Assembly: GCA_015068235.1 (NCBI GenBank)
Contig: SVKY01000002.1
Coordinates: forward strand, 41,870 to 105,869
Origin: Oscillospiraceae bacterium
GTDB taxonomy: Bacteria > Bacillota > Clostridia > Oscillospirales > Oscillospiraceae
Reading direction: 5' to 3'
Length of the DNA: 64,000 nucleotides
Position numbers and translations under genes: made by a program. Below are positions 2,978-64,000 of the stretch, piece after piece. The number at the start of each line of letters is the position of its first letter. Positions within the stretch are counted from its first letter, which is position 1. The notes below the pieces were generated by a model. That model was not told where the DNA came from, did not search any database, and was given only the letters and a program-made list of their open reading frames with translations.

Positions 2978-3430
2978 ATGAACCCTTATGATTCACAAGC
3001 GGTTTCAGCCGTGTGGCAGCGTGTCAGGCAGGGTAGGGAAGTTGATGCCTTGGAACAGGCGCTTTCCGAGGCAATCGCCTTGGAGCACCGTGCCCAAAAT
3101 GCCTATCTTGCAATGGCAAGATGCGGTCATGGTGCATTGTTGCGATCCTTGGCTGCGCAGGAAGCGTGTCATGCCCGCAAGCTCAGTGCACTTTATTACC
3201 TTCTTTTTGAATGTCCACCGTGTCCTCAGAGGCAATGTCCACCGAAAATCGACGATTTTTGCGAGGCGGTGCGCCAAGCCTATCAGGGCGAGCTGATGGC
3301 AAGGCAGAGATATGGGCGCCTAGCAAAGAGCTATCCGGAGCATCGGGAGCTGTTTTGTTGCATTGCAAAGCAGGAAAAACAGCATGCCTGCCGTTTGCAG
3401 CAGCTCACAGAACACCTGCTTCGCCGCTGA
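2978..3430 (+). CDS. Ferritin-like/rubrerythrin-like di-iron protein
   Basis: Repeated E..H helices (EHRAQNAYLAMA, QEACHARKL, GELMARQRYGRLA, QEKQHACRL); SD aaaggagg. Confidence 0.7.
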   Translation: MNPYDSQAVSAVWQRVRQGREVDALEQALSEAIALEHRAQNAYLAMARCGHGALLRSLAAQEACHARKLSALYYLLFECPPCPQRQCPPKIDDFCEAVRQAYQGELMARQRYGRLAKSYPEHRELFCCIAKQEKQHACRLQQLTEHLLRR

Positions 3431-3440
3431 GTGGACCGAA

Positions 3441-3540
3441 CAATTCCGATTGATCGAACAGAACGTATCAACCACGGTAGGAGAGGGTCATGACCCTCCC
3501 CTACAATGCAAAACGAAACTCACCGGCTAATCGGAATTTG
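3441..3540. repeat. Mosaic inverted-repeat element copy 1
   Basis: Ends aattccgatt...aatcggaatt; central palindrome GAGGGTCATGACCCTC; starts 10 nt after a stop codon. Confidence 0.85.
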
Positions 3541-11414: not shown

Positions 11415-11680
11415 AATATGAAACGCAATGATGGGAAGAAGTAGTCGATTTTCTGCTCTCAGAGAGCTGTCAGTTGGTGCAAGACAGTGAGTATATGCGG
11501 CGAAATACATCCCGGAGTGGTCTACCTGAACGGTTTTCTATTAGGGTAGAACGGGTGCGCCCGTCAAAGCGTGAGAGTCTTTGACTCGCTGAGCCTTTTC
11601 CTGCGAGGGAAGGGGAAATCAGAGGTGGTACCGCGTAATTTACGCCCTCTGTTCCGAGCGGAACAGGGGGCTTTATTTAT
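11415..11680 (+). promoter_or_regulatory. T-box leader (Tyr) upstream of tyrS
   Basis: T-box AGAGGTGGTACCGCG (11621-11635), likely specifier UAC (11506-11508), terminator GCCCTCTGTTCC..GGAACAGGGGGC-TTTATTT. Confidence 0.92.
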
Positions 11681-13675: not shown

Positions 13676-13779
13676 AAATTCCGATTCATCGCTGAATTTC
13701 AAATTTTGAACTGTAGGGGAGGGTCATGACCCTCCCCTACAGCGTGAAACGATAATCTCACCGGTAAATCGGAATTTGA
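13676..13779. repeat. Mosaic inverted-repeat element copy 2
   Basis: aaattccgattcatcgctgaatttcaaatttt ... GTAGGGGAGGGTCATGACCCTCCCCTAC ... ggtaaatcggaattt. Confidence 0.88.
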
Positions 13780-13787
13780 AATATTTT

Positions 13788-14891
13788 TTACTTCAAAACA
13801 GTGCCTGCGGAATTGAGCAGGGTCGTGCTGTAGAGGAACAGTACATCCGCATTTTCGAAATCCACAAGCTGATCGATATATTCCAGGGTGATATAGCGCA
13901 TATCTACCATCGTGATCTTTGCATAGCTTTCGCAGAGCATGGGGGTCAGTGCGCTTGCGAAGCTGTCCCGGAACATGATCAGATGCTTATCGCTCGTCGC
14001 ATCGGGATTTTCAATCGTGATCAGGGATTCTGCACCCGAGAGATAAATATCATAAGGATCCACGCCGTCATATGCCGCAATATCATACATGGACATTTCG
14101 ACCCACTGACCGCTGTACTCGTCAATGCGCTTTAAGACAGCATTTTCCGTTGCCGCATTTTGCAAATAAACCAAGCTTTCCGAAATAAACGGATATGCCG
14201 TATGATCGGCATAAACCCCGGAAAAGCCCTCCAGTTCATGCTGCTCGTAGCTGCCAAAATCTACCACCGGAACATTCATCGCCGTATTGAGCGCCGTGAC
14301 AACCTCCTGCAGCTTCTCTTGCCGCCAATGGCTGTCTGTGCGATAATAATCTTCAAGGCGCAGTGTCGGTCTGAGGTCGATTTCCTGTGCGTCAACCTCC
14401 TCCATCATGCGATAAAGCGCCTCGTAGTCCATGGCAGGATAACCGTTTTTTCCGGCGAGGAAATAGTTTTTGTCGGGAATGATCGCATAATAAGCATTTT
14501 GGATTTGGGGATGAGTTTCCAAAATTTTGTTGAGTCTCCTGACGGCGAAGTTGACCTGCTTTTCTTCCAGCGTTTCCCCGATCTCCATCCAATGACCGTC
14601 GGCATAGTAATAGTCATTGGTATTCTTCATCTGCCAAAGGTGCGTATTCATCACGGTCTTGATGCCCCGGAAGCTGTCGCGCAGCGGAAACTGCTCGAGC
14701 AAATACGTCTCCAGCTCGGAGGCATAGCTGCCGTCAAATACTTTTTCGGAAGAAAATTCGGGCTTTTGTGCCAGGGCTCTGCGCTCGGTATCGGAAAGCT
14801 TTGCATCGGGCACAAGCCAATGGCTGATCGCCAAGCCAAAGATCATCAACACAAAGACAGCGACCACTGCAATTTTTTTCGTTTTTTCCAT
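13788..14891 (-). CDS. DHHW/AlgX-like O-acetylation accessory protein
   Basis: Signal anchor, LSDTERRALAQKPEFS, DSHWRQEKL; adjacent to an MBOAT gene. Confidence 0.85.
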   Translation of the reverse strand: MEKTKKIAVVAVFVLMIFGLAISHWLVPDAKLSDTERRALAQKPEFSSEKVFDGSYASELETYLLEQFPLRDSFRGIKTVMNTHLWQMKNTNDYYYADGHWMEIGETLEEKQVNFAVRRLNKILETHPQIQNAYYAIIPDKNYFLAGKNGYPAMDYEALYRMMEEVDAQEIDLRPTLRLEDYYRTDSHWRQEKLQEVVTALNTAMNVPVVDFGSYEQHELEGFSGVYADHTAYPFISESLVYLQNAATENAVLKRIDEYSGQWVEMSMYDIAAYDGVDPYDIYLSGAESLITIENPDATSDKHLIMFRDSFASALTPMLCESYAKITMVDMRYITLEYIDQLVDFENADVLFLYSTTLLNSAGTVLK

Positions 14892-17704: not shown

Positions 17705-17928
17705 AAATTCCGATTTATCGCTGAATTTCGTATTTGCGCAGGTCAAAGCCTTCTCCTTGAGGAGAAGGTGCCCCGAAGGGGCGGATGAGGTGGAAAGGTT
17801 GCGAATTTGCCGAAAACTATCTTAAAATCCCAACTTTTTTCTGCACACCTCATCAGTCAGCTGCGCTGCCAGCTTCTCCTCAAGGAGAAGCCTAAGCCTG
17901 TGCGAACTGAAAGATAAATCGGAATTTG
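17705..17928. repeat. Mosaic inverted-repeat element copy 3 with an alternative core
   Basis: aaattccgatttatcgctgaatttcg ... gataaatcggaattt; core arms TTCTCCTTGAGGAGAAGG / CTTCTCCTCAAGGAGAAG. Confidence 0.85.
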
Positions 17929-17943
17929 GATAACAGATCATGC

Positions 17944-18669
17944 TTAGAGCAATTCATTCCAAATTGCAAAGATCTCCCGAAGGAACATATTGCAAAAATA
18001 AAGCGGATTGCTTGTGCCTGCAGGATAGCCGAGCATTTCAAGCCCAAGCTCTTTTGCAATCAAGGAAGCTCTGAGCAGATGATATTCCGAAGAAATGACG
18101 GCGATTTTTTCAGGCTTTGCCCCCGTTTTTTCTTCGATCAGTGCCATGCTGAACAGCAGATTTTCATTCGTTGTGTTCGCCTGCTCCTCTTTCCAGAGGC
18201 GATCTGCATCGATGCCTGCATCAACCAAATGCTCATACATGCACTGCGCCTCGGTTATGCTCTCATTTTTGCCCTGACCGCCCGAAAGGATCAGGACCGT
18301 ATTCGGATATTCCTGTGCATAGTGCAAAGCGGCATCGATGCGCTCTTTCAGCGATTGGCTGGGAGCTGTGCCGTTGACACCTGCGCCCAAAACCACGGCA
18401 TATTCTGCCTGTGGCTGCTCGCTGCCTCCCATATTCAAGCCAATCCAAATACCCGTTGCGATCATCAGAATGATTCCGGCGCAGAAGCAGACAGAGAAAA
18501 TGATGCTGAAAATTTTACGTCTGCAAAGATTCAAAAGTCCGAATGCAAACCGAACAGCACCCAACGCACAAAGCAGCCCGCCCGTAAACTGATAGCCATA
18601 GACGAAGAAATAACAGAACAAGCCTGCACCGAGCAACATCAGAGCAGGAACCCAATATCTTTTTTTCAT
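17944..18669 (-). CDS. YdcF/SanA-like DUF218 membrane protein
   Basis: AVVLGAGVNGTAPSQSLKERIDAALHYAQEYPNTVLILSGGQG, SSEYHLLRA. Confidence 0.9.
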   Translation of the reverse strand: MKKRYWVPALMLLGAGLFCYFFVYGYQFTGGLLCALGAVRFAFGLLNLCRRKIFSIIFSVCFCAGIILMIATGIWIGLNMGGSEQPQAEYAVVLGAGVNGTAPSQSLKERIDAALHYAQEYPNTVLILSGGQGKNESITEAQCMYEHLVDAGIDADRLWKEEQANTTNENLLFSMALIEEKTGAKPEKIAVISSEYHLLRASLIAKELGLEMLGYPAGTSNPLYFCNMFLREIFAIWNELL

Positions 18670-21624: not shown

Positions 21625-21870
21625 AAGGGGCAACAAAAAATCACCCCTGAAAAATCAGGGGTGAGAAAAATCCCACGGTTCCACCCTGCTTGCAGTTTGT
21701 TCCAACTGCCGCTCGTTGGCGCAATAACGGGCGCACCCGTCCCTCCCTACTATGTTCAGGAGGGCAGCTCAAAAGCGGTTTTGCACTATACGGATGCAGG
21801 AGCTCGCACCAACCGCTCCCTCTCTGTGCAGCCGAAAAATAGCACAATTCTTTCTCACAGCCATTTTCAC
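21625..21870 (-). promoter_or_regulatory. T-box leader (Thr) upstream of thrS
   Basis: Minus-strand AGGGTGGAACCGTGGGA, terminator CACCCCTGATTTTTCAGGGGTG-ATTTTTT; candidate ACC specifier; promoter TTGACA-17 nt-TATATT at 21905-21877. Confidence 0.9.
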
Positions 21871-49299: not shown

Positions 49300-49775
49300 A
49301 AATGACCGTCATTTGAAAAAGCCATGTAGATTTATTATTGATTTACTTGCGGATTTATCCGCATCATTTCAATATGATAGGCGACCATCCTTTCGGTATG
49401 ATGAGATGGACTTCTTTTCGGAATGACAGAGTGCTTTTTGGGATGACTGTCCCTGCTCCCTCATTTCGGAATCAGGGGGAATTTACCTCTTATCATCACG
49501 AAAATGTCTATGCTTTTTCTTATCATTTGTAAAGAAAATCATTCCGAAATTCTATCATTCCGAGGAGTAAAATCATCTTCTAAGACTTTAGATAGAAAAG
49601 TCATAAATCAGCGTAAATCATATGTGAACTTCGTTTTTTCTGGGTGAAATCTCGTTTTTAGAGGGTGTGAACAGGGTTTTAACCCATCGTGAACCCTGTT
49701 TTTGATATATAAGAACTATCACGAATCCTAAAGGGGAAGCATTTTTAAAAACGATTTTGTAAATAAGGGGGATAA
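49300..49775. repeat. Diverged direct repeat, left copy
   Basis: cctttcggtatgatgagatg..cttcttttcggaatgac..atttacctcttatcat..cttatcatttgtaaagaaaatcattccgaaat..aatcctaaagggg; same order at 51811-52303. Confidence 0.85.
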
Positions 49776-51810: not shown

Positions 51811-52303
51811 ATGACCGTCATTTCGGAATGAAGATTATGAGCATCATTTGCATCCAGATTCGTTTTTGATTTATAACGGATTATTCCGTTCATTTTCAAA
51901 TAACCGCTTGACCGTCCTTTCGGTATGATGGGATGACTTCTTTTCGGAATGACGGGAGCGTTTCGGGACGACTACTCTTGCCCCTCGTTTCGAAATTGGG
52001 GGGATTTACCTCTTATCATATCGAAAATGTCTGTGCTTTTTCTTATCATTTGTAAAGAAAATCATTCCGAAATCTTATCATTCCGGAGGGGAAAATCATC
52101 TTCTATGACTTTAGATAGAAAGGTCATAAATCAGTGTAAATCATATGTGAATTTCGGTTTTTTCTGAGTGCATTTCGCTTTTTAAACCTGTGAACCCCAT
52201 GCAAACCGGTATTGAACCCGGTTTTTATTAATATTCCTCTATCATTAATCCTAAAGGGGGAACCGTTTTTGCAAAACTGAATTAAAATAAGGGGGAAATA
52301 AAA
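51811..52303. repeat. Diverged direct repeat, right copy
   Basis: Matches 49300-49775 with the same block order. Confidence 0.85.
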
Positions 52304-60509: not shown

Positions 60510-61544
60510 ATGGAACTTGGAAAGAAAATCAAACAACTGCGCTTCAAATCCGCTCTGACGCAGGAGCAGCTGGCGCAAAAGCTTGGAATCGGTCCGCAGT
60601 CGATCTCAAAATGGGAAAATGCAGTGGCAATGCCGGACATCTCCACGCTTCCTCTCTTGGCGGAAATCTTCGGTGTCACCATTGATGATCTGTTCGATCT
60701 GACCGCATCGCAGCGGCTCAATCGTATCGAAAACCGCATGGAGGTCGAGGAGGAGCTGCCCCGGGATGTGTTTTATGAATACGAGGAATTCTTAAAAACG
60801 CAGCTTTCCGACGAGCAGCAAAAGGAGCGTGCTACGGCTTTGATCGCCAATCTTTACTGGCATCGCATGAACACCTACGCACAGAAGGTGCGCCGTTATG
60901 CCAAAGATGCGGTTCGAATGTCACCCAACGAAAAAGGCTGCCAATGGCTGCTGCAAATGGCAGAGGGACATACCACCTGGGATTGGAACGTAGCAAATCA
61001 CACCGCAGCCATAGAATTTTATTCCGAGCTTGTGAAGGCAAATCCCGACAGCGTACTGTCTTATGAGTGTCTGCTGGACAATCTCATTGCTGACCACCGA
61101 GCCGACGAAGCAGAGAAGGTCTTAAATCGTCTGTGCGCCTTGAAGGGCTTTAAGCCGTTTCTTGCGTTTGTCTACCGTGCGCATATCGCTTTGGCTCGTT
61201 TCGATGCTGCATCCGCAGATCGTATCATCGAAGATATGGTGGAAACTTATGCGCACGACACAGGCTGCCTCTTTGAAGCGGCTCAGTATTATGCAAAAAA
61301 GTGTGATTATGAAATTGCAATTTCCTACTATGAGCGTGACTTCGAATGCGACTCCCGGCGCCCGAGATTCATGGATGCGCTGCAAGGGATTGCTGAGATC
61401 TATCAGATCATGGGTAATTATCGAATGGCGGCGCAGACCTATGACCGGATCATAGACCTCCTCGAAAATGAGTGGGGACTGACGGAAGAGATCGAGCTGA
61501 AGCAGGCACAAAACGAAAAAGCCCGCCTTCTCGCCAAAACCTAA
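60510..61544 (+). CDS. XRE-family regulator with C-terminal TPR-like domain
   Basis: LGKKIKQLRFKSALTQEQLAQKLGIGPQSISKWENAVAMPDISTLPLLAEIFGVTIDDLFDL. Confidence 0.92.
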   Translation: MELGKKIKQLRFKSALTQEQLAQKLGIGPQSISKWENAVAMPDISTLPLLAEIFGVTIDDLFDLTASQRLNRIENRMEVEEELPRDVFYEYEEFLKTQLSDEQQKERATALIANLYWHRMNTYAQKVRRYAKDAVRMSPNEKGCQWLLQMAEGHTTWDWNVANHTAAIEFYSELVKANPDSVLSYECLLDNLIADHRADEAEKVLNRLCALKGFKPFLAFVYRAHIALARFDAASADRIIEDMVETYAHDTGCLFEAAQYYAKKCDYEIAISYYERDFECDSRRPRFMDALQGIAEIYQIMGNYRMAAQTYDRIIDLLENEWGLTEEIELKQAQNEKARLLAKT

Positions 61545-61560
61545 TCAGAGATATTGATGA

Positions 61561-61661
61561 AATTCCGATTGATCGAACAGAACGTATCCACCACTGTAGG
61601 GGAGGGTCATGACCCTCCCTTACAGTTCAGAATTTGAAATTCAGCGATAAATCGGAAGTTG
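61561..61661. repeat. Mosaic inverted-repeat element copy 4
   Basis: aattccgattgatcgaacagaacgtatccaccactGTAGGGGAGGGTCATGACCCTCCCTTACagttcagaatttgaaattcagcgataaatcggaagtt. Confidence 0.88.
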
Positions 61662-61751
61662 TATGATTGAAAAAAAACTGTTTTTCATAACAAATTCATA
61701 ACATCTTCGGCGTATCATCAAGGCATCAACAACAAAGAAAGGATTGATCTT

Positions 61752-64000
61752 ATGAAAAGAAGGATATTGAGCTTTGCTCTTGCGTTGGTGATGCTTTTGA
61801 GCATTTTGCCTGTACAGGCATTTGCAACAGACAGCGAGATCGCTTACGCCGTTGAGGGCGGCAATCTCTATTTCGACACCGCAACGGGTAAGATCACTCG
61901 CTGCGATGCGACCGTGACATCTGCGAACATTCCGGCAGAGATCGATGGCGTTCCTGTAAGACTTATCGGTGTCAGCGCTTTTGATGGCTGCGAGAGCTTA
62001 AAGAGCGTTACGATTCCCGACAGCGTAACGGATATCGGCGATTATGCCTTTGAAAAATGCAGCAATTTGCAGACGATCAGCATCGGAAGCGGAGTAACCT
62101 ATCTTGGTATTTTTGCCTTTGCATGGTGCACAAGCCTTGAAAGCGCTGTATTATCTGATGGTTTGACTACTGTCGGCAGAGAAGCATTTTTTGGCTGCAG
62201 CAGCCTAACGAACATCTCGATCCCTGACAGCGTGAGAAACATCGGACAGGATATTGTCGGCTATACGGCGTTTTACAACGATGATGCAAATTGGGACGGC
62301 GATGTGCTCTATATCGGCAAGCATTTAATCAAGGCAAGACAGACTTTGGAAGGCGCTTATGACATCCGTGAGGATACCCTGACGATCGCCGAATACGCAT
62401 TTTCTAAATGCGATAGCCTGACGAACGTCACGATCCCCAATGGTGTGGTGAATATTGCCTATGGCGCATTTTATAAGTGCAGCGCCTTGACCGACATGAT
62501 CATTCCTGAAAGCGTAGTATCCCTCGGTGCAAATGCGTTTTATGATTGCACAAGCCTGGCAAATGTGATGCTCTGTGATGTTGCACTGCGCATGGAAGCA
62601 TCTGCCTTCTACGGAACAGCGCTTTATAATGACGTGGGCAATTGGGACGATGGCGTTTTGTACATCGGTAAACATCTGATCAAAGCGGAGATGACCTTGG
62701 CGGACGGCTTCACGATCCGAGAGGATACCTTGACGATCGCAGGCTACGCACTTTGCGGCTGTACCTGCCTGACACAGATCGTGATCCCTGAGAGCGTTGT
62801 GCTTATCGGCACAGACGCATTTTCGGACTGCAGCGCCCTGACAAATGCCATCATCGGAAACGCTGTGACCGACATTGGAAGAAATGCCTTCCGTGATTGC
62901 AGCGCCATGACAAGCGTGACGATCGGCAGCAGTGTGGCAAGCATCGGAGAGTACGCATTCTACGATTGTGCAGCGCTGAATGATGTGTATTATATTGGAA
63001 CGAAGGCGCAGTGGCAAAAAATTGAGATCGCCACCGGCAATGCTGCAGTGAAATATGCCACGTTCCACTTCGACAAGGCATATGCGGTCGAGGGTGGCAA
63101 TATCTACTTCGACAAGGACAGCGGAACGATCTTTGACTGCGATGAGAGCGTGACTTCTGCGGATATTCCTGCGAAAATCGATGGAGTTACTGTGACGCAG
63201 ATCGGCGTTGAGGCATTTGCGCAATGCGATGCGTTAACGAGCGTGAAGATTCCTGACAGTGTAACAAATATTGGTGCATGGGCATTCTTCCACTGTGAAA
63301 AATTGGCACATGTAACGATCGGCGGTGCTGTGGAGTTGATCGGTGATGGCGCTTTCTACGGTTGTGGCAGTCTGACGAGCATTGAGATCCCGGACAGCGT
63401 GGTGGCAATTGGCGAGTATACATTTTATAATTGCGCTACCCTGACAAGCATCACGATCGGAAGCGGCGTGGTAAATATTGGGCAATCGGCATTCTATGGC
63501 TGTGACGCACTGGCAGATGTCTATTACAACGATACGCAAGCGGCTTGGAATGAGATTTATATGAATGAAAATAATGAGCCCTTGCGCAATGCCACGATTC
63601 ATTTCGCTGTGGTTGCCTATGCAGTGGAGGGTGGCAATATCTATTTTGATAAGACGAGTGGGACGATCATCGGATGCGACGAAACTGTTACGATCGCTAT
63701 GATTCCCGATGAGATTGACGGTGTTGCTGTGACAGCGATCGGTAATTATGCGTTTTATGACTGCCAATGGCTGACGAATGTGACGATCGGTAGCAGTGTA
63801 ACAAGCATCGGTGATGTTGCATTTTACGATTGCCCTTCTCTGACGGATGTTCATTATGATGGTACGGAAGAAATGTGGAATGAGATCGTGATCGGCGATC
63901 ATAACGATGATTTGTTGGATGCAGCGATATATTTCCTTGTGGAGGAGACAACCGAACCGACCGAGGAGACAACCGAACCGACCGAGGAGACGACCGAGCC
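61752..64000 (+). CDS. BspA-like (LRR_5) surface protein with Thr-Glu-Pro tail, truncated by the window end
   Basis: Signal peptide MKRRILSFALALVMLLSILPVQAFA; repeated SVTIPDSVTDIGDYAFEKCSNL units; tail TTEPTEETTEPTEETTEP; open to 64000. Confidence 0.93.
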   Translation, partial: MKRRILSFALALVMLLSILPVQAFATDSEIAYAVEGGNLYFDTATGKITRCDATVTSANIPAEIDGVPVRLIGVSAFDGCESLKSVTIPDSVTDIGDYAFEKCSNLQTISIGSGVTYLGIFAFAWCTSLESAVLSDGLTTVGREAFFGCSSLTNISIPDSVRNIGQDIVGYTAFYNDDANWDGDVLYIGKHLIKARQTLEGAYDIREDTLTIAEYAFSKCDSLTNVTIPNGVVNIAYGAFYKCSALTDMIIPESVVSLGANAFYDCTSLANVMLCDVALRMEASAFYGTALYNDVGNWDDGVLYIGKHLIKAEMTLADGFTIREDTLTIAGYALCGCTCLTQIVIPESVVLIGTDAFSDCSALTNAIIGNAVTDIGRNAFRDCSAMTSVTIGSSVASIGEYAFYDCAALNDVYYIGTKAQWQKIEIATGNAAVKYATFHFDKAYAVEGGNIYFDKDSGTIFDCDESVTSADIPAKIDGVTVTQIGVEAFAQCDALTSVKIPDSVTNIGAWAFFHCEKLAHVTIGGAVELIGDGAFYGCGSLTSIEIPDSVVAIGEYTFYNCATLTSITIGSGVVNIGQSAFYGCDALADVYYNDTQAAWNEIYMNENNEPLRNATIHFAVVAYAVEGGNIYFDKTSGTIIGCDETVTIAMIPDEIDGVAVTAIGNYAFYDCQWLTNVTIGSSVTSIGDVAFYDCPSLTDVHYDGTEEMWNEIVIGDHNDDLLDAAIYFLVEETTEPTEETTEPTEETTE

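Follow-up and report, generated by a model that had tools for sequence, protein, structure and literature searches.

The 99-nt framed palindrome at positions 61561-61659 of the window (the whole 64,000-nucleotide stretch of Oscillospiraceae DNA analysed here) is likely to be a mobile repeat of the non-autonomous type. It is best read as a double-foot REP with a GTAG tag, or as a collapsed REPIN, set in a conserved frame of terminal inverted repeats (TIRs), and its movement would probably depend on a RAYT (HUH tyrosine transposase) encoded in the genome. This element, the fourth such copy in the window (copy 4), is made up of 15-nt inverted ends, two unlike arms and a GTAG core. The left TIR, AATTCCGATTGATCG (61561-61575, plus strand; often with an outer CA in the family), is followed by arm A, AACAGAACGTATCCACCACT (61576-61595, plus strand), the double-foot core GTAG-GGGAGGGTCATGACCCTCCC-TTAC (61596-61623, no strand assigned), whose right foot is mutated from CTAC, arm B (61624-61644, minus strand; CTGAATTTCAAATTCTGAACT when read inward) and the right TIR, CGATAAATCGGAAGT (61645-61659, minus strand). 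We use double-foot as it is defined in excerpts of PMC6006769, and the GTAG foot followed by a GC-rich palindrome, GTAG-GGGAGGGTCATGACCCTCCC at 61596-61619, is the arrangement that characterizes GTAG-type REPs. The predicted fold scores z = -6.2 as single-stranded DNA and z = -4.4 as RNA, so that a strong hairpin is expected in both and an effect on mRNA would be possible. No Rfam family was found at copy 4, the sole match being a sub-threshold chance hit upstream.

Copy 4 begins 16 nt beyond the TAA stop (61542-61544) of a gene for an HTH_3 regulator with TPRs (Pfam; 60510-61544, plus strand) and ends 92 nt before the start of a gene for a BspA-type LRR protein (61752-63998, plus strand), which reaches the window end. 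The DNA to the right of copy 4 (window 61660-61771), on the upstream side of the LRR gene, shares 89% identity with positions 57060-57170 of contig C31 in the source genome (G000). That segment likewise abuts a frame, and given this identity the element and the gene start were probably duplicated together.

The description of copy 4 as a mosaic of copy 1's left arm and the inverse of copy 2's left arm, made from the sequence alone, is borne out: AATTCCGATTGATCG begins at 61561, CGATAAATCGGAAGT finishes at 61659, and the copy matches copy 1 directly over 72 nt (90%) and copy 2 in inverted orientation over 68 nt (94%). Copies 1 (3442-3538; arms A and C) and 2 (13677-13776; arms B and C) have the same REP core as copy 4. 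Copy 3 (17706-17926; 221 nt) has the frame alone in common with the others, its core, GGAGAAGG, belonging to another hairpin family. No strand is assigned to any of the four as a whole. Reshuffling of both arms and cores is evident across the copies. Copy 1 lies 11 nt past the stop of a rubrerythrin-like ORF (2978-3430), copy 2 is flanked by the stop of a DHHW ORF (13788-14891, minus strand; gap 11 nt) and by a terminator-like hairpin, and copy 3 lies 17 nt past the stop of a DUF218 ORF (17944-18669, minus strand). All four preceding genes are supported as real by Pfam, and they have no function in common. The gaps of 11, 11, 17 and 16 nt for copies 1-4, measured from TIR edge to stop codon, are indeed as short as had been reported (10, 8, 15 and 16 nt), the difference being where the element edge is drawn. 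That every copy follows a stop codon thus holds for the window, but as a rate it was overstated, the sampled rate being ~48%.

The frame, AATTCCGATTnATCG ... CGATnAATCGGAATT, is common to ~180 copies in the 2.3 Mb genome, a ruminant-gut one, by TIR count, the frame pattern giving 176 + 179 matches (up to one mismatch in 2.31 Mb) where the reversed control gives 0. This genome is a draft MAG of 88 contigs, many of which end inside elements, and the siting and hairpin counts below come from 809 kb sampled from it (~35% of the genome). In a 447 kb sample, frames span 96-340 nt with nested cores and fall into size classes: one REP at ~100 nt; a REP doublet with spacer at 144 and 209 nt; a doublet with a hairpin inserted in one of its REPs at 204 and 287 nt; and other hairpin families in frames of 221-340 nt. 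The elements are extragenic and of high copy number, only 1 of 76 sampled overlapping a called gene by more than 25 nt. Among 99 related genomes, exact frame matches numbered 184, 121, 9 and 7 in four species of one genus, with two single matches outside it. A scan of genome and viral contigs for the TIR pattern returned ruminant-gut relatives together with scattered single matches, which we take to be background. Judging from matching contig positions, the relatives G005 and G016 are probably Oscillospiraceae MAGs from the rectum of water deer and dairy cattle.

GTAG-tagged strong hairpins are also abundant, the 809 kb sample containing 93 where six control tags gave 0-25. Frames hold 69 of the 93 and a single RAYT ORF holds 3, and the unframed hairpins of the copy 4 REP type mostly mark broken frames or contig ends. 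Framed copies in the sample mostly carry GTAG hairpins, chiefly as inverted doublets or double-foot forms; inverted doublets with a spacer occur in the 144-, 209- and 287-nt classes, and copy 4 is the collapsed double-foot form of such a doublet. The repeated unit terminates at the outer TIR rather than at the GTAG foot. By analogy with the Anabaena variabilis GTAG-15 repeats, we file the element as a framed REP variant.

A candidate source of the mobilizing enzyme is the RAYT gene at G000 C31:10662-11258 (locus L067, minus strand; NF047646, E 5e-21, score just below the curated cut-off; Pfam Y1_Tnp), which carries three GGGCGGAC REPs that encode VGADDSVRP peptides in frame. These REPs differ in type from the GGGAGGGTC REP of copy 4; no RAYT carrying or flanked by the latter was found, nor any RAYT gene flanked by the frame. 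RAYT proteins of this genome and its congeners match NF047646 with E 1e-18 to 1e-24, most of them below the curated cut-off, which the G010 protein alone passes. A further RAYT gene with in-frame REP hairpins, at G016 L243:2872-3522, encodes several VGADDSVRP-type peptides in a row.

These properties are largely shared with described REP systems. Di Nocera et al. 2013 (PMC3733652) reported GTAG-tagged REPs and REP dimers that likewise have a GTAG foot with a palindrome, inverted dimers and intragenic copies, that are found chiefly where the flanking genes are unidirectional or convergent, in many cases <20 bp from a 3' end, and that prefer heterodimers, a preference linked there to hairpin instability. 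In that study, too, A. variabilis GTAG-15 dimers lie within a long palindromic frame. In the present elements, however, species share one frame but differ in REP core, and three arms are interchangeable; the paper nowhere uses the words Clostridia, Firmicutes, Ruminococcaceae or Faecalibacterium. According to excerpts of PMC6006769, subclass 2.4 TnpA-REP (RAYT group 4) is associated with double-foot REPs of the form GTAG...CTAC, which can be derived from a REP dimer through a central deletion, with REP insertions within tnpAREP that preserve the reading frame, and with PNH[VI]H and WQ motifs and a YIxxNP-like motif, all of which have counterparts here. The same excerpts give Cyanobacteria and Bacteroidetes as the groups in which this subclass abounds, with a scattered occurrence in others, and they do not mention a conserved outer TIR frame. 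In REPINs (Bertels and Rainey 2011, PMC3116915), two inverted REPs and a spacer form an extragenic hairpin that replicates as a unit, whereas the unit described here reaches 35-40 nt past the REPs on each side, to the conserved TIR. What is new is modest, namely the constancy of the frame across species while the core varies, and the pairing of unlike arms; both have precedents in the REP literature.

The frame itself could alternatively belong to a classical MITE, as the TIRs of an extinct or unassembled DDE-type transposon into which REP hairpins merely inserted. The TIR frame is found on every element, and several frames (copy 3 and several of the 96-340 nt cores) hold no GTAG hairpin, so that other machinery may move the frame. 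Core-less elements also exist as fused-TIR 20-mers at 4 loci genome-wide (up to two mismatches). The 20-nt fused frames AATTCCGATAAATCGGAATT at G000 C34:1525, C87:39495 and C27:29315 are probably deletion scars, and such sites would fit deletion between the CGAT repeats at both TIRs, as by slippage across a hairpin. Nevertheless, no target-site duplication was detectable at the frames when many offsets were tested and both flanks were aligned locally, and, among the transposase families searched, no gene bounded by the TIR was found near the DDE_Tnp_1 genes or in the sampled DNA of the 88-contig draft. The DDE_Tnp_1 genes considered as parents are not bounded by the TIR, and IS110 and rve transposases are absent from G000 and G005. 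Independent insertion of REPs would also leave many of them unframed, yet in G000 and G005 an unframed REP is a near-absent exception. We thus regard a classical MITE as an unlikely origin.

Comparison with congeners shows the same frame enclosing other GTAG REPs, GGGCGCGCATTGCGCGTCC in G005 and GGTAGGGGCATGCCCCTACC or GGTTGAGGCATGCCTCAACC in G010. Sites alignable on both flanks with G010 numbered 14. Of these, 2 are occupied by an element whose core differs, in one case within the variant frame AATTCTAATTTGGCG; at another site a fused TIR accompanies GTAG hairpins, and the remaining sites are frameless. Most of the orthologous sites being empty, most copies have been gained or lost since the split; around occupied and empty sites, divergence of the non-coding DNA prevents exact insertion points from being placed.

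The arms follow a pairing rule that is consistent with the preferred reading of a mobile, hairpin-forming REP. In the main (GGAGGGT) class of G000 there are three arms, and all unlike pairs are present (27, 10 and 9 elements; in two more, one arm is unassigned). Like-arm pairs number 0 among these 48, where shuffling predicts 16. All six oriented unlike pairs occur in the 287-nt class, which has an asymmetric core. The rule recurs with different sequences in G005, where there are three unrelated arms and 16 of 18 elements have unlike or unassigned arms. The other two, one P-P and one Q-Q element, rule out an absolute ban on like arms, and the strength of the rule is uncertain because shared ancestry makes the counts non-independent. 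Purging of long hairpins is the likely cause of like-arm rarity; PMC3733652 proposes hairpin instability as the reason for heterodimers.

The position of the elements relative to genes, called here with a simple home-made hexamer caller, is strongly non-random. Of the 73 elements placed in the 809 kb, 35 have a stop codon no more than 20 nt away, where ~8 would be expected at random. The excess is present both in the first half of the sample (20 of 43, against 4.7 for random intergenic placement and 9.1 when each element is repositioned only inside the intergenic region it occupies) and in an independent half (15 of 30, against 3.3 and 7.5), with P <= 0.0005 under the second, own-region null. 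Within 20 nt of a start codon there were only 1 and 1 elements in the two samples. A random intergenic distribution, by which the sequence-only reading proposed that its idea of 3' targeting be judged, is not seen in this genome. The non-random siting it claimed exceeds both nulls and stands, but its suggestion of a special 3' UTR module is weakened by the spacing and family comparisons below.

Under that suggestion, the element's mRNA hairpin would block 3' exonucleases or tune expression of the upstream gene, and the post-stop position would be retained for that reason. The pile-up at 0-20 nt in two independent samples, the very stable hairpin predicted for the RNA and the proposal that REPs act as RNA elements (PMC3733652) all speak for it. 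Against it, an unrelated, unframed palindrome family, ATACTAATCGCCGATTAAAACATT...AATCGGCGATTAGTAT, is sited alike in G000: of its 12 scorable sites, 10 are no further than 20 nt from a stop (e.g. C34:29965, C13:49023 and C31:4046). G005 has the same frame without this peak (1 of 15 elements within 20 nt), which rules out a universal stop-codon rule. The element is also missing from most aligned orthologous sites in G010, and the host genes lack a common function. A third hairpin family, in G010, lies mostly 26-56 nt past stops, adjoining terminators, and since other hairpin families in G000 and G010 are sited likewise, the 3' bias is a general habit of hairpin repeats in the genus. One G010 repeat contains TTGACGATTGGCGA and has its end GACACTCTG directly beside terminator hairpins, with 25 intergenic copies in 741 kb (e.g. 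C14:62209, C16:85285 and C18:5604).

Terminator hairpins, too, show a characteristic offset, the ends of elements often falling ~16-23 nt to one side of them or the other. A terminator-like hairpin starts 16-23 nt away from 16 of 152 element ends compared with 15 of 2000 random intergenic ends, a range picked after the distances had been seen and an independent count nearer 12, since a few of the 16 are paralogous loci. Even in G005, 4 of the 5 terminator hairpins found begin 12-25 nt from an element. Taken together, the unrelated family, G005 and the terminator spacing point to an insertion preference and tolerance rather than to a module linked to stops. More likely, then, the 3' pile-up shows where hairpin repeats settle rather than a special mRNA job, and we consider the module improbable. 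Paralogous gene 3' ends that share a terminator, with the element ~20 nt after it, were observed at G000 C10:1201-1326 and at loci L003, L006, L010, L023, L032 and L052; flanks shared by several elements had been considered as rRNA, which was rejected, as they are paralogous gene ends with a native terminator. That the elements serve as transcription terminators for the gene before them, as their post-stop position and GC-rich hairpin might suggest, is very improbable, given that a T-run follows the hairpin in 0 of 34 near-stop elements and a native terminator lies beyond the element in 10 of 34.

We hypothesize that, for a framed REP of this kind, a RAYT would process the folded single strand and so spread the unit, with shuffling of arms by recombination or strand switching in the shared palindromic core. 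Like-arm copies would be rare because long perfect hairpins are lost by replication. New copies may settle ~20 nt from intrinsic-terminator hairpins through preference plus selection, and loss of copies elsewhere (in coding sequence, ribosome-binding sites or promoters) would leave the 3' position; strong mRNA hairpins formed by transcribed copies are treated as a side effect. A more speculative extension, which we think doubtful, is that frame and REP form one two-part mobile system whose outer repeats recognise sites ~20 nt from terminator hairpins, so that REPIN insertion would be terminator-guided, REP cores and arms could be swapped, and like arms would be actively excluded.

More generally, these data suggest that uncultured Oscillospiraceae of the rumen and hindgut harbour framed double-foot REPs as a large class of repeats, a cyanobacterial case having been noted before. 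Arm assortment amounts to a natural experiment on the strength of bacterial purging of perfect hairpins, and the ~20-nt terminator spacing, if confirmed, would help to explain post-gene REPs without an mRNA function. Other repeats are also present in the window. An unframed inverted repeat with ACGGGTGCGCCCGT hairpins lies at 11539-11571 and 21720-21752, and a 165-nt direct repeat occurs at 49475-49639 and 51998-52162, its copies 91% identical and 2.5 kb apart.
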